Positions 981-30,205 of a stretch of DNA of 35,976 nucleotides are shown here, one piece after another. Origin of the DNA: Bacteroidota bacterium. Its GTDB lineage: Bacteria > Bacteroidota > Rhodothermia > Rhodothermales > Salinibacteraceae. Each line of letters opens with the position of its first letter. Position 1 is the stretch's first letter. The position numbers and the translations under genes were made by a program. The stretch lies in NCBI GenBank assembly GCA_009908945.1, contig JAAAOI010000031.1, forward strand, positions 1-35,976. Direction: 5' to 3'. The notes beneath the pieces were generated by a model that was not told the DNA's origin, did not search any database, and saw only the letters and a program-made list of their open reading frames with translations.

Positions 981-3545
981 GTGCCGTCTGTGTACCCTGA
1001 CGTACCTTTGCCCATGCCCCGACCGCCAGCGTTTCCCACGAAGCCAAGCCCCGCTGCACGCCTGGTTGCCTGTGTGTTTGTCCTGCTCTGCGCCCTTGGC
1101 GCTGTCGGAGGAGGCGCTGGGCAGGATGTGACCGCACAGACGTCTGTACTTTCCGGGAGCGTCGTAGATGAAGAAGAGCGTGCCTTGCCCGGAGCAAACG
1201 TGGTGGTGCAGAACGAAGACGGCACGAAGGGGACATCGACCGACACGGACGGCCGCTTCGAGATCGGTAGGCTTGCGCCCGGTCCGGCCCGGGTAACGGC
1301 GCAGTTCGTCGGGTATCAGGCAGCGGAGAAAACCATCATGCTGGAAGCCGGCCGAACGCACACCATCCGCTTTGCGCTCGAGCCGGCGGTGGTAGAGATC
1401 GAGGAGGTCGTCGTCACCGCTCAAACCCGCCGCCAGCGCCTCTCGGAAGTCCCCATTGCCGTGACGGCCCTCACGGCGGCGGATCTGGAAGAGAGCCGGG
1501 TGTCGAGTGTTGAGGATTACGCAGCGCTTACCCCCAACCTGACCTTCGCCAGCACTGGGCGGCGCTCCGAGTCCGATATCACCATCCGGGGCGTGAGCAA
1601 CCTTGGAGGCCAAAGCAACGCCTACGGCGTGTATGTGGATGGCCTCAACGTAACGCCGTCATCCTCAGACATCGCGATCAACCCAGCGCTTCTCGACATA
1701 GCGCGCATCGAAATACTGCGCGGGCCACAGGGTACACACTTCGGGCGAAACGCTATCGCTGGAGCGGTGAACATTACCACGGCAAAGCCTCACCACCAGG
1801 TAGCCGCCACGATAGAGGGTGGCGTAGAGCGGTTCGGCACTCAGCAGGGAAGCGCTATGGTGAACCTACCCCTGGCTGACGGGCTCGCGCTCCGCACCAC
1901 TGGGTTTTATGAGCAGTCCGACGGATTCATCGACGACATCGGCTTGGCGAACAACACGAACAGCCACGAGGCGTGGGGCCTCCGGAGCAAGCTGCGATAC
2001 CAACCACTCCAACGGCTGATCATCGATGCCTCGGTATCGCACAACACCTTCGACCAGGGCTACCGCACGATGGTGCCTTCTGCAGCGGTTAACCCAGCGC
2101 TCGAATCGATTCTGGAGGCCCTTGGCGAGCCGGGTGGCGTTCGGGAAGGCCAGGGGGTTTTTCCCGCAAACAACGCACGCATCAGCACCGACGCTGCGTT
2201 CCGGTCGCGTCTGTCCACAACGACTCTAACGGGGCGGGTAGCGTATCACTTCGATGCGTTTTCAGTCATCGCGCAGAGCGGCTGGATCGAGAGCTCGTCA
2301 GCGACATTGGGCGAGGAGGACAACACCGCACGAGACATCATCACGGGTGATGTGGAGGAGACCCTGACGGCCCTGAGCCAGGAGGTGCGGGTACAGTCGC
2401 GTCGAGACGACGCAGCGACTTGGCTTGTAGGTGCCACCTATACTGACGATGAAACGCAGTTTTTCATCAACCGCTTCTTCGGGCGCGACTTTCCGCTGGC
2501 CCCCTTCCTGTCGGCGGCACCGCCCTTCCGCTTCGACCAGACGCGAACACGCCGCACGACCGAATCTGTTGGCTTATTCGGAGAGGTGGAGCGGAAGCTC
2601 TGGAATGAGCGGCTCAACGTACTATTGGGCCTTCGCTACACATACGACGACGTGCGCAGCGAAACTGACGGGGAGACGTTTGCGCTCTCCACCAATCCCG
2701 ACAACCCGGCGTTTCCGGGGGCGTTCGTCGAGCGGGAAAACAGCGGATCGGTGTCCTTTCAGGACGTCTCCCCACGCCTTGCCCTTACCTACCGCCTGAC
2801 GGAATCAACCAACGTGTTTGCCGCGATAGCCCGGGGCTACAAGGCGGGCGGCTTCAAGGAAAATCAGGTGCAGGGCGATCCCACATTCGACGAGGAAACT
2901 CTTTGGAACTACGAGCTGGGACTGAAAAGCAACGGCTGGAACCGAAGGCTGCGGCTCGATGCGAGCCTCTTCTACATGGACTGGTCGGATTTGCAGGTCA
3001 ACTCAGTTGACGTTTCGACCGGCACCCCCATCTTCGAGACGCAGAACGCGGCCGAAGCCAGCAGCTTTGGCGCGGAGCTGGAGGCCCGGGCGATACCGGT
3101 TAACGGGATTGAGGTGGGGGGCAGCCTGGGCCTACTCGACGCAACCTTCGATTCGTTTCCTGCAGCCAATGTGGAGGGAGCAGAACGCGATCTTTCGGGA
3201 GGCCCGCTACCCCGTGCCCCCGAGTGGACAGCCAGCGGGTTTTTGCGATACGACCATTCGTTCAGTGAACGGCTCCGCGGCTTTATTCGGGGGGCTGTTG
3301 CCTACACGGGCGAGCGGTACGAGGACATTGCCGCGCGGGCGCCATTTCGCGTGCCAGGTCATGCCGTGGTCGATCTGTCGCTCGGTCTTCAGACCGACCG
3401 TGCTCGCGTGCGAGTCTATGCGGAAAACGCGTTCGCCAACGAGTACTTCGTCGGTATTCGTGCGTCCTCGCTATCGCTCAGTGGCCTTCAAGTATCGCCG
3501 CGCCCTCGCCTCTTTGGGGCTGAACTGGCGGTCACTCTTTTTTAA
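981..3545 (+). CDS. TonB-dependent outer-membrane receptor with CarboxypepD_reg-like N-terminal domain
   Basis: This 854-residue outer-membrane receptor imports a ligand (probably a ferric siderophore or other metal complex) using TonB energy. A signal peptide covers roughly residues 25-48. A CarboxypepD_reg-like beta-sandwich follows (about 55-140, with GSVVDEEERALPGANV and a GTSTDTDGRF turn), as is common in Bacteroidota. The TonB box region and plug come next (VEIEEVVVTAQ, then IRGVSN, YVDGL, IEILRGPQGTHFGRNAIAGAVNI). The remainder is a 22-strand-type barrel ending in the expected terminal phenylalanine. The plug resembles that of siderophore receptors more than SusC, and no SusD partner is present. 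Translation may start at GTG 981 (preceded by TAGGTGAG) or at ATG 1014, which still precedes the signal peptide. The substrate cannot be read from the sequence; iron is inferred from the P19 and PepSY neighbours. Confidence 0.9.
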   Translation: MPSVYPDVPLPMPRPPAFPTKPSPAARLVACVFVLLCALGAVGGGAGQDVTAQTSVLSGSVVDEEERALPGANVVVQNEDGTKGTSTDTDGRFEIGRLAPGPARVTAQFVGYQAAEKTIMLEAGRTHTIRFALEPAVVEIEEVVVTAQTRRQRLSEVPIAVTALTAADLEESRVSSVEDYAALTPNLTFASTGRRSESDITIRGVSNLGGQSNAYGVYVDGLNVTPSSSDIAINPALLDIARIEILRGPQGTHFGRNAIAGAVNITTAKPHHQVAATIEGGVERFGTQQGSAMVNLPLADGLALRTTGFYEQSDGFIDDIGLANNTNSHEAWGLRSKLRYQPLQRLIIDASVSHNTFDQGYRTMVPSAAVNPALESILEALGEPGGVREGQGVFPANNARISTDAAFRSRLSTTTLTGRVAYHFDAFSVIAQSGWIESSSATLGEEDNTARDIITGDVEETLTALSQEVRVQSRRDDAATWLVGATYTDDETQFFINRFFGRDFPLAPFLSAAPPFRFDQTRTRRTTESVGLFGEVERKLWNERLNVLLGLRYTYDDVRSETDGETFALSTNPDNPAFPGAFVERENSGSVSFQDVSPRLALTYRLTESTNVFAAIARGYKAGGFKENQVQGDPTFDEETLWNYELGLKSNGWNRRLRLDASLFYMDWSDLQVNSVDVSTGTPIFETQNAAEASSFGAELEARAIPVNGIEVGGSLGLLDATFDSFPAANVEGAERDLSGGPLPRAPEWTASGFLRYDHSFSERLRGFIRGAVAYTGERYEDIAARAPFRVPGHAVVDLSLGLQTDRARVRVYAENAFANEYFVGIRASSLSLSGLQVSPRPRLFGAELAVTLF

Positions 3546-19617: not shown

Positions 19618-20502
19618 GTGAGCGATCGCATCTTCGGACACATCCCGGGCTATCCACCGGGGAGCTCCTTCGCGTCACGTCAGGCACTCCACGACGCCGG
19701 CGTGCATGGGCCGCTCCGGGCAGGGATCGCAGGATCGCAGGCGGAAGGAGCGGAGTCGGTTGTGCTCTCTGGAGGGTACGAAGACGACGCGGATTACGGG
19801 GCGGTCATCCTTTACACGGGGCAGGGCGGCCGCGACCCCGAGACGGGCGAGCAGGTGGCGCATCAGCTGCTCAACCGGGGCAACTTGGCACTGGCGACCA
19901 GCAAATTGCGAGGGTTACCGGTACGGGTTATTCGTGGAAAGGGCGCTTCCCCGTACGCGCCGGCGGAGGGGTATCGGTACGATGGGCTGTACGTGGTGGA
20001 TGCCTACTGGAAGCAGCGCGGGGCAGCGGGCTTCGTTGTTTGGCGGTACCGCCTGCTACGCGCCGACCGGCTTCTCGACGGCATGACCGTAGCAGAGGCA
20101 TACAGTCCGTACAGTGAATCGCGCGTGCCCACATCGCTGCTCCGCATCGTGCGCGATACGGCGATGGCACGCGAGTTGAAGACCCAGTACGACTATAGGT
20201 GTCAAGTCTGCGGCACGCGCCTCACCACACCGGCGGGCTCCTACGCCGAGGCTGCACACATTCGTCCGCTTGGGCGGCCTCACAACGGGCCTGACACATT
20301 TGATAACCTGCTGTGCTTGTGTCCCAATCACCATGTGCTGTTCGACCACGGAGCGTTTAGCCTGACGGATGATCTGTCGTTCATCACCTCAGGCGAGCTA
20401 TGCCTCCCGGAACCGTCCCTGCTCCGGCTTGCAGACCACCGCCCAGCGACGGAGCACCTGGCCTACCATCGGGTGCACCTATTTCACGGAAACGGATCGT
20501 AG
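19618..20502 (+). CDS. SRA-HNH modified-DNA restriction endonuclease
   Basis: This 294-residue protein joins an N-terminal SRA (YDG) domain to a C-terminal HNH nuclease. The SRA part (about 3-145) shows FGHIPGYPPG, SGGYEDDADYGAVILYTGQGG (landmarks at residues 51-71), GNLALA and YDGLYVV; such domains flip and recognise 5-methyl- or hydroxymethylcytosine. The HNH part (about 185-245) shows CQVCG (C195, C198), H214 in AAHIRPL, N230 and CLCPNHH (C233, C235, H238, H239), the zinc-supported beta-beta-alpha-metal fold. Enzymes of this type cut DNA bearing modified cytosines and act alone as type IV-like restriction. Start is GTG 19618. It lies 51 bases after rpe on the same strand and has no methyltransferase neighbour, as expected for a modification-dependent nuclease. 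Confidence 0.88.
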   Translation: MSDRIFGHIPGYPPGSSFASRQALHDAGVHGPLRAGIAGSQAEGAESVVLSGGYEDDADYGAVILYTGQGGRDPETGEQVAHQLLNRGNLALATSKLRGLPVRVIRGKGASPYAPAEGYRYDGLYVVDAYWKQRGAAGFVVWRYRLLRADRLLDGMTVAEAYSPYSESRVPTSLLRIVRDTAMARELKTQYDYRCQVCGTRLTTPAGSYAEAAHIRPLGRPHNGPDTFDNLLCLCPNHHVLFDHGAFSLTDDLSFITSGELCLPEPSLLRLADHRPATEHLAYHRVHLFHGNGS

Positions 20503-20685: not shown

Positions 20686-22818
20686 ATGCAGACGCTGGTC
20701 GGCGAAACGATCGAAGGCTACCGCTTCGTAGAGGAGCTGGGGCGCGGGGGCATGGGGACGGTCTACCGGGCGGTGGATCAAGCGCTCGACAAGGCCGTGG
20801 CCATCAAGGTGGTGAACCCCGATAGGGCGACCCAGGGCACCTTTCGCGAACGCTTCCGGACGGAGGCGCGGGCGCTGGCCAAGCTGGATAGCCCCACCAT
20901 CGTGCGGGTGCTGGCGTTTCGCGAAACGTCCCATGGGATGTTTCTGGTGATGGAGTACGTGGAGGGCCGCACCCTGCGCTCGGTGCTCGACGCGACGGAC
21001 ACGCTGCCGCTTGCGTGGACGTTGAAGGTGTTTCCGCAGGTCGTGGAGGCCGTCCGGCAGGCGCACGAGCGGTCCATCCTCCATCGCGACTTGAAGCCCG
21101 GCAACGTCCTGCTGTCTGACGACGGGCAGGTGAAGGTCGGAGATTTTGGCCTGGCCAAGATGCAGGCCGCCGATCCGCACCTCACCTCCACCTACGCCAC
21201 AGCAGGCACGGTCTGCTACATGGCGCCCGAACAAATTCAGGGCTTGCGGCACACCACAGCCCAGAGCGATCTCTTCTCGCTGGGGGTGATACTGTACGAG
21301 ATGGTCGCTGGCCGGCTACCCTTCGACGTCCACACCGGCACCTATGCCATTCAGCGGGCTATCGTGGAGGAGCCGTTCCCGTCGGTGCAGGTGCATCGGC
21401 CCGATGCGCCCGATGCGCTGGCCGCCTTAATTGCGGACCTTACGGCAAAAGACCCGGAGCAGAGGCCGGCGTCCGCAGCGGTTGTACAGCAGCGCCTTAC
21501 AGCGGAGGTCGCCGCACCGTCGGCCACACGGACGCCCCTGCCCGAAATTCCTACGGTGGCGCCCGATACTTCCTTCGACCGTTCGGCATGGCTGCGCATC
21601 GGAGGGGGCGTGGCGGCTGTCGTGCTCCTCTTTGCGCTAACGCTGGGCGGCGTCTGGTACGCCCTGAACGGAGCGGCGCCCCCCGGAGATGGCGAAGCGC
21701 CGGCCTCCCGTCCCACCGCTTCCGCGCCCGCGCCGCTCCCCGCGGAGGAGGGTCCTGCAAATGCCGTCACACTCACGGTAACCACCACCCCACCCGGGGC
21801 CACCCTGCGCGTGGATGGTGACTCCATGGGGGTGACGCCAGTGGAGCTCCAACGCCCGCCGGCCGATCAGGTACAATTGCACGCCGCTCACCCCCTGCAT
21901 ACCGCATCGCTGGATACCACGATTGCCCTGGGGGCCAGCCGCTCGGTGCAGCTGAGGTTCGCCGGGCTGGACGCGGTCGCCGAGGCCGTGCCTGCTGAAG
22001 AAGGCGGTGACGACACGCCGACGGCCACCGAAGATGCGGTCGACGAGGGCACCCCGGATCCCGCCGGCGATCGGGGGGGGCAAGACGCAACGGCTACGGC
22101 ACCTGAGGAAACGGCAGAGCGTAGCACGGAGGCGCCTGCGGAGGAGGAGGCCGCCCCTGCAGCGCCGCCGGTGGGTGCGCTGCGGGTGATCTCCACGCCC
22201 GACAGCGCGACGGTGTGGCGGGAGGGGGCCGCCGTAGGGACTACGCCGTACGTGGCGAGTGCTCTACCGGCAGGGCCGCAGGTGCTAACCCTGCGCCTCG
22301 CGGGGTACCAAGACGAGGCGGTGGAGGCGCGTGTCGTGCCGGAGGAAGAAACCACCGTGCGCGTATCGCTGGAGCCCCGCCCGGCCCGGGTGTCTCTGCA
22401 GGTGCTCCCCTTCGGCGACGTGCTCATTGACGGCGACGTGCAAGTCGAGGCAACAGATGTCGCGCATCAGGACACCCTGCCGCCCGGCACCTATGCGATA
22501 GTAGCCCGCTACCGCGACCTGCAGTGGGCGCGCACCATACGCCTCGAACCGGCGCAAGAATGGAGCAAGGTCGTGGATTTTACAGCGCGGCACACCGTGG
22601 CGATCATCGCCCGCTCTACCACCGGCGAGCGGATTGCCAATGCGGAGGTCCTCATCGACGGCCAGCGCCAAGGCTACACGCCCCAGCAGATGCAGCTGCG
22701 TACGGGCACGCATACCCTGACGGTGCGTAGGCAGGGCTACCAGACCATCGAAACCACCATCGTCGTCGACGATACGCTACCCGACGCCCTGACGATGGAA
22801 CTCACGCCTGCACCGTAA
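20686..22818 (+). CDS. Transmembrane Ser/Thr protein kinase with extracytoplasmic PEGA repeats
   Basis: This 710-residue type II-like membrane kinase has a complete catalytic domain (about 12-270): glycine loop GRGGMG (19-24), lysine K41 in VAIK, HRDLKPGN (133-140), DFG (153-155) and APE (180-182). A single helix spans about 305-326. The outside part has PEGA-type repeats at about 362-425, 498-564 and 637-706, recognisable by S/T-x-P-x-G/S-A-x-V/L...G-x-x-P and TLxxxGY; a fourth, degenerate one is near 568-635. They are joined by a long Ala/Pro/Glu-rich linker (431-497). PEGA domains are thought to bind cell-envelope or surface ligands. ATG 20686 begins the kinase fold directly. It lies 46 bases before the next gene on the same strand. 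Confidence 0.9.
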   Translation: MQTLVGETIEGYRFVEELGRGGMGTVYRAVDQALDKAVAIKVVNPDRATQGTFRERFRTEARALAKLDSPTIVRVLAFRETSHGMFLVMEYVEGRTLRSVLDATDTLPLAWTLKVFPQVVEAVRQAHERSILHRDLKPGNVLLSDDGQVKVGDFGLAKMQAADPHLTSTYATAGTVCYMAPEQIQGLRHTTAQSDLFSLGVILYEMVAGRLPFDVHTGTYAIQRAIVEEPFPSVQVHRPDAPDALAALIADLTAKDPEQRPASAAVVQQRLTAEVAAPSATRTPLPEIPTVAPDTSFDRSAWLRIGGGVAAVVLLFALTLGGVWYALNGAAPPGDGEAPASRPTASAPAPLPAEEGPANAVTLTVTTTPPGATLRVDGDSMGVTPVELQRPPADQVQLHAAHPLHTASLDTTIALGASRSVQLRFAGLDAVAEAVPAEEGGDDTPTATEDAVDEGTPDPAGDRGGQDATATAPEETAERSTEAPAEEEAAPAAPPVGALRVISTPDSATVWREGAAVGTTPYVASALPAGPQVLTLRLAGYQDEAVEARVVPEEETTVRVSLEPRPARVSLQVLPFGDVLIDGDVQVEATDVAHQDTLPPGTYAIVARYRDLQWARTIRLEPAQEWSKVVDFTARHTVAIIARSTTGERIANAEVLIDGQRQGYTPQQMQLRTGTHTLTVRRQGYQTIETTIVVDDTLPDALTMELTPAP

Positions 22819-22847
22819 GCCGGCGCTCTCATTTCCTTCCCACCGCC

Positions 22848-22865
22848 ATGCCTCCTGGCTCCTGA
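22848..22865 (+). CDS. Possible five-codon upstream reading frame (coupling leader)
   Basis: An ATG at 22848 opens a frame of MPPGS and ends at a TGA (22863-22865) whose last A is the first base of the ATG of the next gene, giving a TGATG overlap. This is the arrangement used for translational coupling by reinitiation. No ribosome-binding site is apparent ahead of it, so whether it is translated is uncertain. Confidence 0.25.
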   Translation: MPPGS

Positions 22866-23428
22866 TGCGCTCTTTCGCTCCCTTGGTAGTGGTGATGGTG
22901 GCTGCATGGCTGGGGCTTATGGCGGCGGCCCCTGCGCTCGCGGTTGCGCAGGAAGCGGAAGCCGCCTGTGCGCAGGAGTTTGAACGGGCGGAGGAAGCCT
23001 ACTTCAGCGCTGAGTTTGAGCGGGCGATCGGGCTCCTGACCACCTGCCTGGACGAGGTCGCCTTATCGCCCGATGAGCGCCTGCAGTTTCTGCGGGTGTT
23101 GGCCTTCGCCTATCTGGGCACCGAGGCGATGGCCGATGCGCGCATGGCCGTCGAGCACTTGCTGGACGTCGACCCGGCGTACACACCGGATCCCGCCACC
23201 GACCGCCCCGACTTCGTGACCCTTGTAGAGGAGGTAAAGGCTACCCGCGAGGACCCCGCCGCCGCGTCGGAAGGCCGGTCGGTCTGGCGCTGGGTGGCGG
23301 GCAGCGCCCTCACCGTGGCCGCCGGCATCGGCGCAGCCGTGTTGCTGGGCGGCGGAAATGGCGGACCAGGGAATGGCAATGGCGGCGGCGATGACGGACT
23401 CCCCACGCCACCTCTTCCTGGAAATTAG
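22865..23428 (+). CDS. Exported TPR-like protein with C-terminal membrane helix
   Basis: This 187-residue protein has an N-terminal signal (about 1-28, ending ALAVAQ). Next come tetratricopeptide-like helices (about 35-115, with FERAEEAYFSAEFERAIGLL and LQFLRVLAFAYLGTEAMADAR) that end in YTPDPATDRPDFVTLVEEV. A second hydrophobic helix (about 139-158) follows, and then a Gly/Asn-rich tail. The TPR solenoid would sit outside the cytoplasm, with the membrane helix at its C-terminus. It follows the PEGA kinase by 46 bases and precedes the T9SS surface protein by 12, so the three form a probable operon. I do not recognise a named family; interaction with the kinase PEGA repeats is a position-based guess. 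Confidence 0.7.
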   Translation: MRSFAPLVVVMVAAWLGLMAAAPALAVAQEAEAACAQEFERAEEAYFSAEFERAIGLLTTCLDEVALSPDERLQFLRVLAFAYLGTEAMADARMAVEHLLDVDPAYTPDPATDRPDFVTLVEEVKATREDPAAASEGRSVWRWVAGSALTVAAGIGAAVLLGGGNGGPGNGNGGGDDGLPTPPLPGN

Positions 23429-23440
23429 CCCCGCGCGCTC

Positions 23441-25537
23441 ATGAAACGACCGATACGTCGCCGCCCCACAGCACGCGGCCCTGTGGTGGGCTGGAGCGTG
23501 CTGGCCCTGCTCGTGCTACTGTCGCACCCCGCATGGGCGCAGGATGCCCCTACCAACGTCCAAGCAACCCCGGCCAATGCCGCGGTAACGATCACATGGA
23601 CGGCCCCAACGGTGGATAGCGACGAGACCATTGAAGGCTACAACGTGTACCGCGCTACCGAGTGGTTTCCTGACGGCGCCCCCGAGGAATCCATCGCTTC
23701 ATCTATCACCTCAACACCAGTCACCGCCACGACCCTTACGGATGAAACGGTCGGCAATGGCACCACCTATTTCTATCGGGTCACTGCGCTTATTAGCGAA
23801 GGCGGCGATGCGGCTGAAGAAGGCGACCTGTCGGTGGGAGCCAGTGGCATCGACTTTGCTACCCCGTCTACGCCCCCGACCATTGAAGTCGTCGAGCCCC
23901 AGCCGGCCACCCGCCCAGCCCCAGAGCCTGAAGGTGAGACTGTGCGCGTGGAGGCCGAGATTCGCACGCCCCTAACGGTTGGCGTCGCCACGCTGCATTA
24001 CCGGCAAGGCGGCGAAGCTGGGTTTACCGTGCAGACGATGGGTGGAAACGAGCCAGACTTTCAAGCGGAGATCACGTCTGGCCGCGTTGGCCCTCGCGGG
24101 GTGGAGTACTTTATCACTGCGGCGGATACCGCTGGCGTGGCGGCACGCTTTCCGGCCGAGGGTTTTGTGTCGCTGCCGGTGGAAACGTCAGGCCTCACCA
24201 CGAGCCAGGGGGGCGGCACGGCGCAGTCGGCGTTTCGGATGATTACCCTGCCGCTGGAGCTACAGGGCACGACCGTGGGCGACCTGCTGGTGGACGACCT
24301 CGGCGCGCCCGACCCCGACGCGTGGCGCCTGTTCGGTATCAGTCCACGCGGCCTCTTTGCCGACGATGGCGGCTACGTGGAGATCGACGATCCGGCTGCG
24401 CCCATCAACCCCACCGATGCGTTCTGGCTGATCTCTGCTGCGCCCGTCACGCTCGCCACGGGACCGGGCGCATCCGTACGCACCGATGAGCCGATTACGC
24501 TGCCTCTGCAGGCAGGATGGAACCTGATCGGGCACCCGTATGCGTTTGCTGTACCCCGCGCTAATCTGACGGTCGAGAATACCTCTGCCGATTTAAATGA
24601 CGTGCTGCGGTTTACCGGCGAGTTTGAGCCGGTAGCGGGCTCAGCCGTGCTGCGGCCGTTTGAAGGCTACCTCATCCGGCTCACCGACGGCGGCACCGGC
24701 ACGCTGGTCATCGACCCGGACCGGTCGTCCCCCGCGGACGCCACGCCGCCACGGGCGTCGACGGGCGCCGACGCCGCACTGGACTGGGAGGTCCGCATTG
24801 CCGCCCGCCATGAGGGTGCGCGTGACAGCTTCAACAGCGCCGCCGTGGCCTCGGGAGCGGCTGACGGGTACGACGCGCTCGACCGGTTCAACCCGCCGCC
24901 CATCGGGGACTACGTGACGGTGTACTTCCCGCGCGACCACTGGGGCGCCTACGCGGGGCCGTACCGGCGGGACGTGCGCCCGGCGGGGGCCTCGCTCTAC
25001 GACTGGCCGTTCGAGGTGCGGACGGCGGAGCCCCGGGCTGTTGAACTCACCCTCGGACCGTTCGATGAGGTGCCCGCGGACTTCGAGGTATGGCTGATCG
25101 ATGAGGCGGAGGACACCGTGCACAACGTGCGGGAGGAGGCGGCCTACCCGTTTGCCTCTGCCGGGGCGGATACTCCGCGCGCGTTCCGCTTGCTGGCGGG
25201 CACGCCGCAGGAGGTTGCTGCCATGCTGGAGGCGACGGTGGAGCAGCCCCAAGAAGTCACGCTGCAGACGCCCTACCCGAACCCGGCTACCGTGGGTGAC
25301 CCGATCACCGTAGCGTATGGCGTGCCCGCCCCGGGCGCGGTCAGGCTTGAGGTGTTCGACGTGCTGGGGCGCCGGGTGGCGACGCTTCGGCAAGCAGATG
25401 CGGCCCGCGCCGGGTACCACACGGTGGTCTGGGACGGCCGCGGGGCTACAGGCCAGCGGCTGGCCAGCGGCACCTACCTCGTGCGCCTGACGGCCGGCCC
25501 TACGATGCGTACGGCGCCGGTGGTCCTCTTGCCCTGA
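23441..25537 (+). CDS. Surface/secreted fibronectin-III protein with type IX secretion sorting domain
   Basis: This 698-residue protein has a signal peptide (about 1-34, ending AWAQ). A fibronectin-III fold follows at about 36-135 (PTNVQATPANAAVTITWTAP, then TIEGYNVYR and TYFYRVTA), then an acidic region of beta-rich sequence with repeated landmarks GWNLIGHPY (near 358) and WRLFGISPRG (near 290). Residues about 608-698 form a T9SS type A sorting domain: YPNPATVGD, VRLEVFDVLGRRVATL, WDGRG and ASGTYLVRL. The protein is therefore exported across the outer membrane and kept at the surface or released. Function beyond adhesion or scaffolding is not known. It ends the kinase-TPR group; a minus-strand gene follows convergently with a terminator between. 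Confidence 0.82.
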   Translation: MKRPIRRRPTARGPVVGWSVLALLVLLSHPAWAQDAPTNVQATPANAAVTITWTAPTVDSDETIEGYNVYRATEWFPDGAPEESIASSITSTPVTATTLTDETVGNGTTYFYRVTALISEGGDAAEEGDLSVGASGIDFATPSTPPTIEVVEPQPATRPAPEPEGETVRVEAEIRTPLTVGVATLHYRQGGEAGFTVQTMGGNEPDFQAEITSGRVGPRGVEYFITAADTAGVAARFPAEGFVSLPVETSGLTTSQGGGTAQSAFRMITLPLELQGTTVGDLLVDDLGAPDPDAWRLFGISPRGLFADDGGYVEIDDPAAPINPTDAFWLISAAPVTLATGPGASVRTDEPITLPLQAGWNLIGHPYAFAVPRANLTVENTSADLNDVLRFTGEFEPVAGSAVLRPFEGYLIRLTDGGTGTLVIDPDRSSPADATPPRASTGADAALDWEVRIAARHEGARDSFNSAAVASGAADGYDALDRFNPPPIGDYVTVYFPRDHWGAYAGPYRRDVRPAGASLYDWPFEVRTAEPRAVELTLGPFDEVPADFEVWLIDEAEDTVHNVREEAAYPFASAGADTPRAFRLLAGTPQEVAAMLEATVEQPQEVTLQTPYPNPATVGDPITVAYGVPAPGAVRLEVFDVLGRRVATLRQADAARAGYHTVVWDGRGATGQRLASGTYLVRLTAGPTMRTAPVVLLP

Positions 25538-25646: not shown

Positions 25647-26861
25647 TTACTCGAGCTCAATCTCTTCAGCGATCAGGATGCCGTCGCGGTTGCGGTAGCC
25701 TTCCACTTCTACGCGATCGCCCACTTGCAAGTCGGCCAGCGTCAGGTCGCGGTCGTCGTCTTCGATCTCCGTCTCGCTCGTTACGGTAAACGTGATGCCA
25801 CTTACCGTAAGCTCCGGAGCACTAATCGAGTCAATGAACCCCTTGACCTCCACTTCATTGGCGTCGTCGTCATCGTCTTCCCGCTCAATTTCGTACGCGA
25901 TGAGGTCGCCGTTTCGGTCGCGGTAGCCCTCCACCTCAACGACGTCTCCTTCCTGCAGGTCGGAAAAGGACAGCGGACGGTCATCTTCGCCTTCGACCTC
26001 GGTCCGATCCGTCACCAAGAAGGTGAAGCCGTTCACCGTGAGGCTGTTGCTCCCGAGTGCCTCAATGCGCCCGTCCATGTCTACTTCGTTGGCTTCATCG
26101 CCTTCCGCTACAATAGAGCGCTTGATGTTGTCCTCGACAAGGTCCTCAAACCGGCCGTCTTCATTGCCTTCTTCCGGGTCGATGAGCGTGCCGTCGCTTG
26201 TGCGAAACCACGAGTCGATGTCTACGACGAACTCCACACGCTTTGGAGCAGCGCCGGTTACCTCAAGCGAGGGCCGGAATTCGAGCTCTTGCTCTTCGTC
26301 TAAGTCGCTGAGGTAGACGAACGAGCGCTCTGGGCCGTCATCTGGCGTCCAGGTGCCTTCCACTCGGATGCTGAAGCCCTCGGGGAAGCCGGTCTCATCA
26401 AGCAAGGCGGCCTCGTCGTCATCGTCGCGCTCCAGCTGCTCCACTTCAAACTTGACTTCCTTCCACAAACCCTCTGGCACGGAAGCCTCAACAACAACTG
26501 CGGGAGGACCGCCATCAAGCGGAAGGTCAACCAACAGCGGGCCCTGCTCGATATCGCTACGGCCAGAGGCGTCCCGGTCGTCGCGTTCAAACTCGATTTC
26601 GCCAATGGCAATCTCCACCCGGTCCAGGGTGAGGGTGCTGCCGGAGGCGTCGCTCAGCGCAAGGGCGCCTCCCATGGTGCGGCCCATCAAAGCGGACGGC
26701 CCCACTGAGGCCGCCGTCGTAAACGACAGGGTAACGGGGGCCTCATTATCGCCTACGGTCGGGTTGTTGGCATCGAGCGTACTGCTGTCGCAGGCCGTCA
26801 TCAGGACGCCAACGGCAAGGGAAAGTAGCAGGGCTATGGCGCTACGAATGGAGGTCTTCAT
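25647..26861 (-). CDS. DUF4382 plus DUF5666 acidic lipoprotein
   Basis: This 404-residue lipoprotein has a lipobox M-T-A-C with the cysteine at residue 24, followed by Asp. The first part (about 40-255) resembles DUF4382, with TLDRVEIAIGEIEFE, LPLDGGPPAVVVEASVPEG and RVEFVVDIDSWF. The rest holds two DUF5666 repeats (about 265-330 and 336-404). Each is built as a short beta unit that ends V-E-V-E-G-Y-R-x-R-x-G followed by I-A-x-E-I-E. It is strikingly acidic throughout. ATG 26861 starts the signal peptide; the open frame back to 26984 lacks signal-like sequence and covers the probable promoter. It is divergent from the histidine-kinase gene. Function of either domain is unknown; DUF5666 repeats are often found in extracytoplasmic proteins. 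Confidence 0.82.
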   Translation of the reverse strand: MKTSIRSAIALLLSLAVGVLMTACDSSTLDANNPTVGDNEAPVTLSFTTAASVGPSALMGRTMGGALALSDASGSTLTLDRVEIAIGEIEFERDDRDASGRSDIEQGPLLVDLPLDGGPPAVVVEASVPEGLWKEVKFEVEQLERDDDDEAALLDETGFPEGFSIRVEGTWTPDDGPERSFVYLSDLDEEQELEFRPSLEVTGAAPKRVEFVVDIDSWFRTSDGTLIDPEEGNEDGRFEDLVEDNIKRSIVAEGDEANEVDMDGRIEALGSNSLTVNGFTFLVTDRTEVEGEDDRPLSFSDLQEGDVVEVEGYRDRNGDLIAYEIEREDDDDDANEVEVKGFIDSISAPELTVSGITFTVTSETEIEDDDRDLTLADLQVGDRVEVEGYRNRDGILIAEEIELE

Positions 26862-27161
26862 GGCTCGTCTTGTCGGATGAGTGAATATACTGCCAGACGG
26901 CTGTGGCTCGCCTGTTTGCTTCTCACCCTGTATCAAATCCAACAACTGTGCCAGTCCATTTTTGAAAGATGCAACATTAGCCATAACAATAGTTTACGCG
27001 AAATAGTCTGTATGGCAACCGAGTGGTCATCCTGGCGATGAAACAGCCCGGTGTGTCGCAGTCTGTTTCATGACACAACCAATGAGACACGGTACGTGTT
27101 GATAGCCTTGCATCGGCGTACGCGTGCGCCCCGTTATCCCCCACGACCCGGCTTGTCTTCT
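26862..27161. promoter_or_regulatory. Divergent upstream region between the lipoprotein and the histidine kinase
   Basis: This 300-base region serves both divergent genes. I see no strong sigma70 pair; TTGAAA at about 26964 with TAACAA 16 bases later points toward the kinase but is weak. On the minus strand a near-consensus sigma54 sequence lies at 26938-26953. The kinase is preceded by an open frame of 37 codons (27051-27161) with no likeness, so it is treated as leader. Confidence 0.4.
26938..26953 (-). promoter_or_regulatory. Sigma54-like promoter sequence, -12 element imperfect
   Basis: Read on the minus strand the sequence is TGGCACAGTTGTTGGA. It matches the sigma54 consensus TGGCACRNNNNTTGCA with intact -24 GG and correct spacing, but the invariant -12 GC is GG. 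It would start transcription about 65 bases before the ATG of the acidic lipoprotein. The neighbouring regulator at 28499 is a sigma54 activator, which makes the site worth noting, but the changed -12 base may kill it. Confidence 0.28.
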
Positions 27162-28499
27162 ATGTCTCTTCGGTACGCTCTGCTCTGGGGCTTCAGTGCC
27201 GCCGCCGTGCTGGTGCTGTTTGTTGGCGGTGTAGGCCTGTTTACGGTTTATCAGCTGGGGCAGGCCACGACGCCGGGCGCGGGGGAGGCCGCCCTGTTGG
27301 TACAACGGGCGCTGTGGATTATGGCAGGGCTGACGACCGTCGGCTTGCTGTTGGTTGGCGGGGTGGCCTGGTGGACGGACGCTCGGCTGTCGGGGCCACT
27401 CCATGCGCTGCGGGATGCGGTGAAGCGCCTCCGCGACGAAGGGGGAGAGGCCGCGCTTCCAACGGACGGCCCGCGGGAAGTGGCGCAGGTGGCCCAGCGC
27501 GTGAACGACCTGATGGGCGTGATGAAGCGCGACACGGTGCCGCGTTCCTACCTCAACAACCTGCTGGACTCGATGGGCGAGATGCTCTTTGCCCTGGACG
27601 ACGACGGACACATCCGGCGCATCAACCGGGCCGCTGCGGACGTGGTAGGGCCTCCGTCGACCATGCAGGGGCGGCCCTTCCAAGCGCTGCTTGTAGAGGG
27701 GGCGCTCCCTCCGGTAGCAGACGGGCATCCGCAGGGCGAAGCCACGATCCGCGCGCAGGACGGTACAGCCGTGCCTGTGCTCTATTCGCTGTCGGTAGTC
27801 AAAAACCCGACCGGCGATGCGCAGGGGCTGGTCTGCGTTGCGCAAGACATCAGCGACCTGAAGGAGGCCGAGCAGGAACTGCGCGCCTCGCTGGAAGAAA
27901 AAGAGGTGCTCCTCCGCGAGATCCATCACCGGGTGAAGAACAACCTGCAGGTCATCTCCAGCCTGCTGCATCTGCAGAGCCGCAACGTGGCGGATGCCAC
28001 CGCCCAGCAGCTCTTCACGGACAGCCAGTCGCGCATCCGCTCCATGGCGCTCATCCACGAACAACTGTACCAGTCGGAGGACCTCGCCCAGCTCAACGTC
28101 GAAGGGTACCTGCAGCAGCTTACGGATCACCTCTTCCAAACGTACAACATGCGCGGCGCTTCCGTAACGCTTGCCATTGAGGCCGACGACGCGTCGCTCG
28201 CTATGGACCAGGCTATTCCCTGCGGCCTCATCGTGAATGAACTGGTGTCCAACGCTCTGGAGCACGCGTTCCCCGATGACCGTGGCGGGAGGGTGCGTGT
28301 TGCCCTGACGCGCACCGACGGCGCGGCTCGCCTTGTAGTCGAAGACGATGGCGTGGGCGCGCCGGACCCGGCGGCGATCGAGACCAGCCATACGTTGGGC
28401 CTCAAGCTCGTCCGCGGTCTGGTGCAGCAGCTGGGCGGCGCCCTCACGGTAGCCGCGCCTGCCGGCCTTCGTTTTACGATCACCTTTCCCCACGCTTGA
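27162..28499 (+). CDS. Membrane sensor histidine kinase, PAS and HisKA_2
   Basis: This 445-residue membrane kinase has two helices (about 5-31 and 50-71) with a very short periplasmic loop between them. A HAMP-like linker (about 72-125) and a PAS domain (about 130-235) with VAQDISDL at its end follow. The kinase core begins with [21 protein letters not shown] (landmarks at 252-271), the HisKA_2 dimerisation type, with the probable phospho-accepting H256. The ATP lid has the N box [16 protein letters not shown] (355-370), the G1 motif DDGVGAP and the G2 motif [10 protein letters not shown]. The short loop suggests sensing inside the membrane or by the PAS domain. ATG 27162 begins the first helix. 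Its stop overlaps the ATG of the regulator, so both are made together. Confidence 0.9.
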
Positions 28500-30205
28500 T
28501 GCCTCACCCCCCCGCCGACACGCCCCGTGTCCTCATCGTTGAAGACGAGGTAATCGTGGCTATGGAGCTACAGGACCGCCTCGAACACCTGGGCTACGCC
28601 GTGACCGACACCCTGACCACCGGCGAGGCCGCCCTGAAGCAGGTGCCTGAGCAAGCCCCCGACCTCATCCTCATGGACATCCGGCTGGATGGCGCCATGG
28701 ACGGCATCGAGACGGCCGAGGCTATCCGCGCCGTGCAGGACATCCCCGTGATCTTCCTGACGGCCTACAGCGACGACCGCACGCTGGAGCGGGCCAAAGC
28801 GGCCGCGCCCTTTGGCTACATCGTGAAGCCGTTCGAGGAGCGGGAGCTATACGCCGCTGTGGAGGTAGCGCGCAACATCCACCGGCTGGAGCGCCAGCTG
28901 CAGGAGCAGCGGGATGACCTGCTGCAGATCCTGGACGGGCTCCGCCAGGGCACAGCCATGACCGACCCCGAGGGCTGCATCACGTTCTGCAGCCGGGCCG
29001 CAGGGCGCATGCTGGGCCTCCCGCCGGACGCGATGCAGGGCATGCCCTGGGCAGAGGCGTTTCCGCTGGCTGACGCCACGCTGGCGGCGCTCCGCGAGGC
29101 CACCACGCTGGCCCCGGAGGAGCGCACGGCCATCCCCGCCGAAGTGGACGGCACCGACGGCCGGCACTACCGCATGGAAATCGACGTACAAGACGACCCG
29201 CGCGACCCCGCGCGCCACATCTTCGTGCTGTACGACGTCACCGCGGTGCATGACCTCCGCCGGATGCTGGACGAGGGGGCGTCCTACCGGGGGATAATCG
29301 GCACGAGCGACGCGATGCAGGAGGTTTTCCGGCAGATCGAACAGGTGGCGCAGGTGAACAGCACAGCGCTTATCCACGGCGAGACGGGCACGGGCAAGGA
29401 GCTGGCCGCCCGAGCGATCCATAACGCCAGCGCCCGGGCCGACGGGCCGTTTGTCGCGGTCAACTGTGCAGCGCTGAACCAGGAGCTGGCCGGAAGCCAG
29501 CTGTTTGGCCACACCAAAGGCGCCTTTACCGGGGCCACGTCCGACCGCCCAGGCTTCTTCGAAACGGCCGAAGGCGGGACGCTCTTTCTGGATGAGATCG
29601 GCGACATTCCGCTGGAGGTGCAGCGCCAACTGCTGCGCGTCCTGGAGGAGGAAGAGATTGCCCGCGTAGGCGAGACGAAGACGCGGCCGGTGGACGTGCG
29701 CATCCTGGCCGCCACGCACCGCGACCTGCGCGCTGAGGTGGAGGCCGGGCGCTTTCGGGAGGACATGCTCTACCGCATTCGCATCGCGCGGGTGGAGCTG
29801 CCGCCGTTGCGCCAGCGCCGGGCCGACATCCCCCTGCTCGTCCGCGCCCTCCTGCAGGATGCGCGGGCGCGCCTCGGGAAGGAAGCCGACGGCATCCATC
29901 CCGACGCCATGCGGCAGCTCATCAGCTACGACTGGCCCGGCAACGTGCGGGAGCTCCGCAACGCCATCGAGTACGCCCTCATCCGCGCCCGCCATGCCGT
30001 GCTGCAGATGGACGACCTCCCGCCGGAAATCGCCGCGGCGGAGGACGCAGCCGCAACGCCTGCCTCGGAGTGGCCCGATGACGAGGAGGGCCGCATCCGG
30101 GCGGCGCTGGCGCACACCGATGGCAACCGCACCGAAGCCGCCGAGCTGCTGGGCATGAGCCGCGCCACGCTGTACCGCCGCCTGGATACGTATGGGATTG
30201 GCTGA
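28499..30205 (+). CDS. Sigma54-dependent response regulator with REC, PAS, AAA+ and Fis-type HTH
   Basis: This 568-residue regulator starts with a receiver domain (about 9-125) with acidic pocket VEDE (14-17), phosphorylation site D60 in [10 protein letters not shown], and K110 in IVKPFEE. A PAS domain (about 140-250) is inserted before the sigma54 module (about 265-490): GETGTGKE (294-301), GAFTGA (341-346) and [10 protein letters not shown] Fis-type helix-turn-helix (about 525-568) has [20 protein letters not shown]. It would activate sigma54 promoters when phosphorylated by the kinase to which it is coupled. The ATG at 28499 shares its A with the kinase TGA; an upstream TTG codon is less likely. 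The PAS domain between REC and AAA+ is an uncommon arrangement. Confidence 0.93.

Follow-up and report, generated by a model that had tools for sequence, protein, structure and literature searches.

Organization of the locus

The window, here the whole 35,976-nucleotide stretch of the Bacteroidota contig that was analysed, contains a three-gene group on the forward strand, as the earlier note had described. Gene 1 (20686..22818, 710 aa) is assigned by Pfam and motifs as a Hanks-type Ser/Thr kinase with one transmembrane (TM) segment and a predicted periplasmic PEGA region. Gene 2 (22865..23428, 187 aa) follows after 46 bases and codes for a predicted exported TPR protein (alignment A1, AlphaFold, Foldseek), while gene 3 (23441..25537, 698 aa), after a further 12 bases, codes for a predicted secreted all-beta protein with an N-terminal FN3-like domain and a C-terminal T9SS type A sorting domain.

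Downstream lie three companions of the trio, syntenic with it within the window's family. The first, on the reverse strand, is an exported protein with DUF4382/DUF5666 domains (25647..26984, start may be 26861; Pfam). It is followed, on the forward strand, by a PAS/HisKA_2 histidine kinase (27051..28499, start may be 27162) and a response regulator of receiver-PAS-sigma54 AAA+-Fis architecture (28496..30205), both assigned by domain scan and synteny. Domain searches gave no match to PP2C anywhere in the window and none to FHA among the scanned neighbours of the trio. Directly upstream of the kinase, outside the conserved block, a gene with SRA (SAD/SRA) and HNH_2 endonuclease-like domains is found (19618-20502), probably a modification-dependent nuclease.

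The PEGA kinase

The kinase domain (about 20719-21492, forward strand; Pfam Pkinase, E 3.7e-56) is followed by the single TM segment (about 21610-21666, residues 309-327) and by the PEGA region (21766..22773; Pfam PEGA, E 5.6e-26), which bears out the kinase with a PEGA ectodomain read earlier from the bare sequence. The "three or four" PEGA repeats counted there comprise three recognized by Pfam (21766-21888, 22174-22380 and 22636-22773) and a degenerate fourth unit (~22393-22620), visible only with a profile seeded from that unit. The catalytic motifs GRGGMG, VAIK, HRDLKP, DFGL and APE are all intact, and the Pkinase fold thus carries the Gly loop, VAIK lysine, HRD, DFG and APE elements of the Hanks type; judged on these motifs, the enzyme is active-looking. 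The best NCBIfam match of the kinase is the PASTA kinase model (NF033483), but membership in that family was rejected, as the score of 286 bits is below the cut-off of 450, the match is confined to the kinase region, and the repeats are PEGA and not PASTA. A sequence search of the PEGA region against the PDB returned no match.

The exported TPR protein

Gene 2 agrees with the short exported TPR protein with its own helix that had been proposed. On the forward strand, a signal peptide with an AQ cleavage motif (about 22865-22951) precedes the predicted TPR core, which contains Cys35 and Cys61 (about 22952-23251), and a hydrophobic C-terminal segment (about 23294-23350, residues ~144-162). The tail is Gly/Pro-rich, with a PLPxPP-like motif at its end. 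Both cysteines are invariant across the 29 sequences of alignment A1. The Pfam scan gave no TPR match for this protein; the assignment comes from the AlphaFold model (pLDDT about 93-98 over residues 30-129), with Foldseek neighbours that are almost exclusively TPR folds (best E 0.017, probability 1.00), and from the TPR-family profile, which matches consensus TPR chains at E 2.1e-06. The predicted structure has the helix-turn-helix architecture of TPR proteins. Identity with the TssQ family of T6SS-associated lipoproteins (NF038027) was rejected, the match being weak (22.1 bits, cut-off 65).

The location of the C-terminal helix is less clear. Positive charge is greater before than after it in 22 of 26 TPR proteins, the reverse of what the positive-inside rule predicts for a stop-transfer helix in the inner membrane with a periplasmic TPR domain. 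An inner-membrane seat is in doubt because of these flank charges and because the TPR domain occurs elsewhere fused to an outer-membrane (OM) barrel, to a CsgG-like domain, or to a T9SS protein.

The T9SS-sorted protein

The gene 3 protein begins with an N-terminal hydrophobic segment (signal peptide) and ends with the type A sorting domain (about 25274-25498, forward strand), recognized by TIGR04183 with 25.5 bits for the full protein and 29.2 bits for the tail scanned alone (cut-off 23). The genome encodes the translocon protein SprA (SprA_N, E 3.1e-70) and contains 19 TIGR04183 places, gene 3 included; no PorU equivalog was found in it above the cut-off, that search matching only sorting-domain tails. 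With sorting domain, signal peptide and SprA present, the type IX secreted protein announced by the earlier note is upheld. Its fibronectin label stands in part: FN3 is not significant in Pfam, whereas the all-beta model matches FNIII tandems. As the Foldseek matches, to many Ig/FN3 chains, are of low coverage, the protein is assigned to a domain class only, and its body is modeled as FN3/Ig-like all-beta.

Conservation and co-occurrence

Relatives were searched with the TPR protein alone as the query, and matches were found in 40 genomes among 80 relatives. Nearly all TPR places were read; genes were called by dynamic programming on codon usage and then labelled with purpose-made profiles. 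A PEGA and/or kinase gene is located within three genes of the TPR gene in 69 of 84 loci (PEGA in 66, kinase in 55), a gene with a T9SS tail within four genes in 44, and both together in 39, spread over 10 families. The partner tails that were sampled match TIGR04183 in 37 of 38 cases. A second, independent search used the PEGA region as query and listed 50 places, counted as 49 (one gene counted once). Of these, 35 fall no more than 3 kb from a TPR place, where 0.21 would be expected at random. A closer TPR alignment search gave six named loci, Salinibacter altiplanensis AN15 among them. The co-occurrence among relatives is thus strongly positive. Genes standing apart, or a TPR protein among unrelated neighbours, would have pointed to chance; this is mostly not what is seen.

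The six-gene block (kinase, TPR protein, T9SS protein, DUF4382/DUF5666 protein, histidine kinase and sigma-54 regulator) is kept, though rearranged, in 7 relatives, while the genes flanking it change and are mostly not kept. Synteny alone is what close relatives are expected to show, and the three genes could be accidental neighbours held together by short evolutionary time. This is highly improbable, since the block persists where its flanks are mostly lost, sets of the same composition recur as paralogues within one genome and outside the order, and PEGA places near TPR are far above the random expectation. Outside the order, kinase-PEGA, TPR and T9SS tail stand together at 9 of the 20 loci read (GC 0.34 to 0.53). 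Two incomplete 1.8-Mb genomes (L098, L099) carry a PEGA kinase adjoining two genes of the histidine kinase/sigma-54 regulator type, without the TPR and T9SS genes (the domains of the pair were checked in L098).

Among 62 kinase-TPR pairs, a T9SS-tail gene is found near 42 and none nearby in 20. The order is kinase-TPR-T9SS in 23, kinase-T9SS-TPR in 9 and T9SS-kinase-TPR in 3; in 6 others the TPR and T9SS genes face a convergent kinase. The kinase is convergent in the genus of Salinibacter altiplanensis (G016), yet the six-gene block holds together there while its flanks change. The 20 pairs without a T9SS gene, together with some PEGA kinases without a TPR neighbour, show that the surface protein is not obligatory. 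These pairs, and others in which a kinase-less PEGA protein accompanies the TPR gene, would suit a general envelope-stress pair made of the TPR protein and the PEGA kinase, the T9SS protein being a frequent but functionally separate neighbour. We consider this unlikely, as the T9SS-tail gene accompanies 42 of the pairs, is retained when the order is shuffled, and its distances co-vary with those of both partners. The pairwise distance matrices of kinase domain, TPR domain and T9SS tail correlate with r of 0.75, 0.67 and 0.68 (permutation maxima ~0.16), a correlation to which common paralogue groups and the descent of the species contribute in part.

The TPR family occurs in 39 of 296 genomes of a phylum sample. 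SprA is encoded in all 39 and in 228 of the 296 overall (raw counts, with kinship ignored), which is consistent with a link to T9SS. TPR homologues without PEGA or kinase neighbours exist as well (L091, L092, L107, L110-L114 and others), so the family has other uses too.

Additional sets and variants

Two more sets are present in the window's own genome. The second (L043, G000:C245:1-7186) consists of a kinase-less PEGA membrane protein, a TPR protein and a large secreted protein whose gene is truncated where the contig ends. The third (L044, G000:C186:1-11028) consists of an SLT-like protein, PP2C, a PEGA kinase whose frame seems broken near 3392, and two TPR-CsgG-like proteins.

Taking the window type as variant A, five further arrangements can be distinguished. 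Variant B, to which the second set belongs (examples are L043 and its relatives L046, L058, L060, L089 and L115), combines a kinase-less PEGA membrane protein and a TPR protein with large secreted proteins, several of which have an S74 chaperone tail. In variant C (L056, L061, L082), the kinase-PEGA protein is accompanied by a TPR domain that forms one protein with an outer-membrane barrel; L056 and L082 also have PP2C. Variant D, seen in several families and with some parts absent from some loci, comprises FHA or FHA-TM-SLT, PP2C, kinase-PEGA, a TPR-CsgG-like protein, a second CsgG-like protein and an often giant T9SS protein. Variant E (family f3 and outside the order) is formed by a GAF-sigma54 activator, kinase-PEGA, a T9SS protein (Kelch-like by eye in L146) and TPR. 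Finally, a STAND-type ATPase with WD40 replaces the kinase in variant F; large WD40 ATPases adjoin the TPR family instead of a kinase in L080 (AAA_35), L187 (nSTAND1) and L188-L191 (the Pfam scan covered L080 and L187 only). What persists across the variants is the pairing of PEGA with TPR, to which a kinase is usually added and, often, a T9SS passenger that differs between sets.

Fused proteins also occur at these loci. A single ORF at L071:4689-6842, a natural fusion, combines a signal peptide with TPR, the hydrophobic segment and a T9SS sorting domain. FHA and lytic transglycosylase domains are combined in one protein beside PP2C and a PEGA kinase at L142:11871-13526, with a TM segment between them, and at L186:12846-14333; such a protein is possibly a phospho-controlled peptidoglycan enzyme. 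At L192:2726-5014, FHA domains are fused to a pyridine-nucleotide oxidoreductase, again beside PP2C and a PEGA kinase.

Proposed mechanism

The sequence signals of each protein predict a cytoplasmic kinase domain, a periplasmic location for the PEGA region and the TPR protein, and a surface location for the T9SS protein. We propose that the trio exemplifies a conserved phospho-signalling module that spans the envelope and works outside-in through a TPR adaptor to the PEGA kinase (probability roughly 0.45). The T9SS-exported FN3/Ig-like protein would sit at the cell surface, and its state or export would be read by the small exported TPR adaptor, either periplasmic or membrane-held. The latter would engage the periplasmic PEGA repeats and alter the dimerisation or activity of the single-pass Hanks kinase, which would phosphorylate cytoplasmic targets and so change gene expression or remodel the envelope. 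Candidate targets at other loci are the adjacent FHA proteins, the FHA-TM-lytic transglycosylases and the GAF-sigma54 activators, with the PP2C phosphatase resetting the system; for the window, the strongest candidate for an output is the neighbouring pair of histidine kinase and sigma-54 response regulator. The TPR-PEGA contact, the direction of signalling, the substrates and the signal itself are what we infer.

The earlier note had suggested an inside-out sensing or assembly system that ties phosphorylation to a surface protein. The tie is the natural reading of the locus, but the direction is not the one favoured by the neighbourhoods: the additional partners are mainly cytoplasmic kinase outputs (PP2C, FHA, sigma-54 activators), which argues for outside-in signalling, and PorA of P. 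gingivalis, a surface CTD protein that relays a signal inward (PMC7712824), gives a precedent for such a relay by a T9SS CTD protein. In the opposite direction, the kinase would, via PEGA and TPR, license its partner T9SS protein to be exported, attached or positioned, with the TPR protein as a cargo-specific secretion adaptor, much as PpkA and Fha license T6SS assembly. That each T9SS passenger has a kinase/TPR set of its own encoded next to it is in line with such control, as are the TPR-T9SS fusion in L071, the FHA-SLT transglycosylase neighbours (possibly an envelope-facing output) and the requirement of T9SS export for PorE, a periplasmic TPR/CRD protein (PMC5053529). On the other hand, the sigma-54 activators next to the sets of several clades suit a transcriptional output, and the 19 sorting-domain places in the genome stand against few kinase/TPR sets. 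Inside-out or assembly control, the main rival of the outside-in reading, is regarded as somewhat unlikely.

The outside-in reading may, more tentatively, be extended to a phylum-wide surface-to-cytoplasm phospho-relay, each set pairing one T9SS surface sensor with its own TPR adaptor and PEGA Hanks kinase, and some variants using a STAND ATPase or a PEGA protein that lacks the kinase. Several insulated surface sensors would then operate in one genome, giving the T9SS an equivalent of the threonine-phosphorylation pathway of the T6SS.

Comparison with known systems

To our knowledge, sensing of the T9SS-decorated surface in Bacteroidota is known mainly from PorA-PorXY. The literature searched (with subscription journals mostly outside its coverage) contains no description of PEGA kinases with T9SS proteins or of T9SS with Ser/Thr kinases, nor of a partner or function of Hanks kinases with a PEGA ectodomain. 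The components are of known kinds and their combination appears undescribed. A gene trio kept across many distant Bacteroidota points to an undescribed line of signalling between the cell surface and the interior. The kinase/TPR/T9SS unit, with its swappable passengers and its PP2C, FHA and sigma-54 partners, offers concrete genes for tests of kinase-to-surface signalling, and it is present in cultured organisms such as Salinibacter.

The proposed module may be likened to PorA-PorXY-SigP, where a surface T9SS CTD protein is tied to a pathway acting on cytoplasmic transcription (PMC7712824). PorXY is a two-component system feeding the ECF factor SigP, whereas the trio has a PEGA Hanks kinase and a TPR protein; the surface protein is FimH-like in the PorA system and FN3/Ig-like in the trio; and the histidine kinase/response regulator pair of the window is of the HisKA_2 and sigma-54 type.

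With the T6SS system PpkA/PppA/Fha and TagQRST (PMC10482370) the trio shares a membrane Hanks kinase, periplasmic and OM partners and the link to a secretion system. PP2C and FHA are also shared with this threonine phosphorylation pathway in many relatives' loci, but they are not found beside the window trio, which in addition differs in its T9SS substrates, PEGA repeats and TPR partner. Membership in that pathway was rejected, as PP2C and Fha are missing beside the trio and the partner system is T9SS. The PASTA Hanks kinases (PknB/Stk1) are similar in having a cytoplasmic kinase, one TM segment and repeated small extracytoplasmic domains; here, the PASTA repeats are replaced by PEGA, and the profile match is limited to the kinase domain. 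PorE (PG1058) likewise links a periplasmic TPR and a carboxypeptidase regulatory domain-like (CRD) fold to T9SS (PMC5053529). It is one OM lipoprotein, with a beta-propeller and OmpA_C, whereas in the trio TPR and PEGA belong to separate proteins, the PEGA protein being a kinase.
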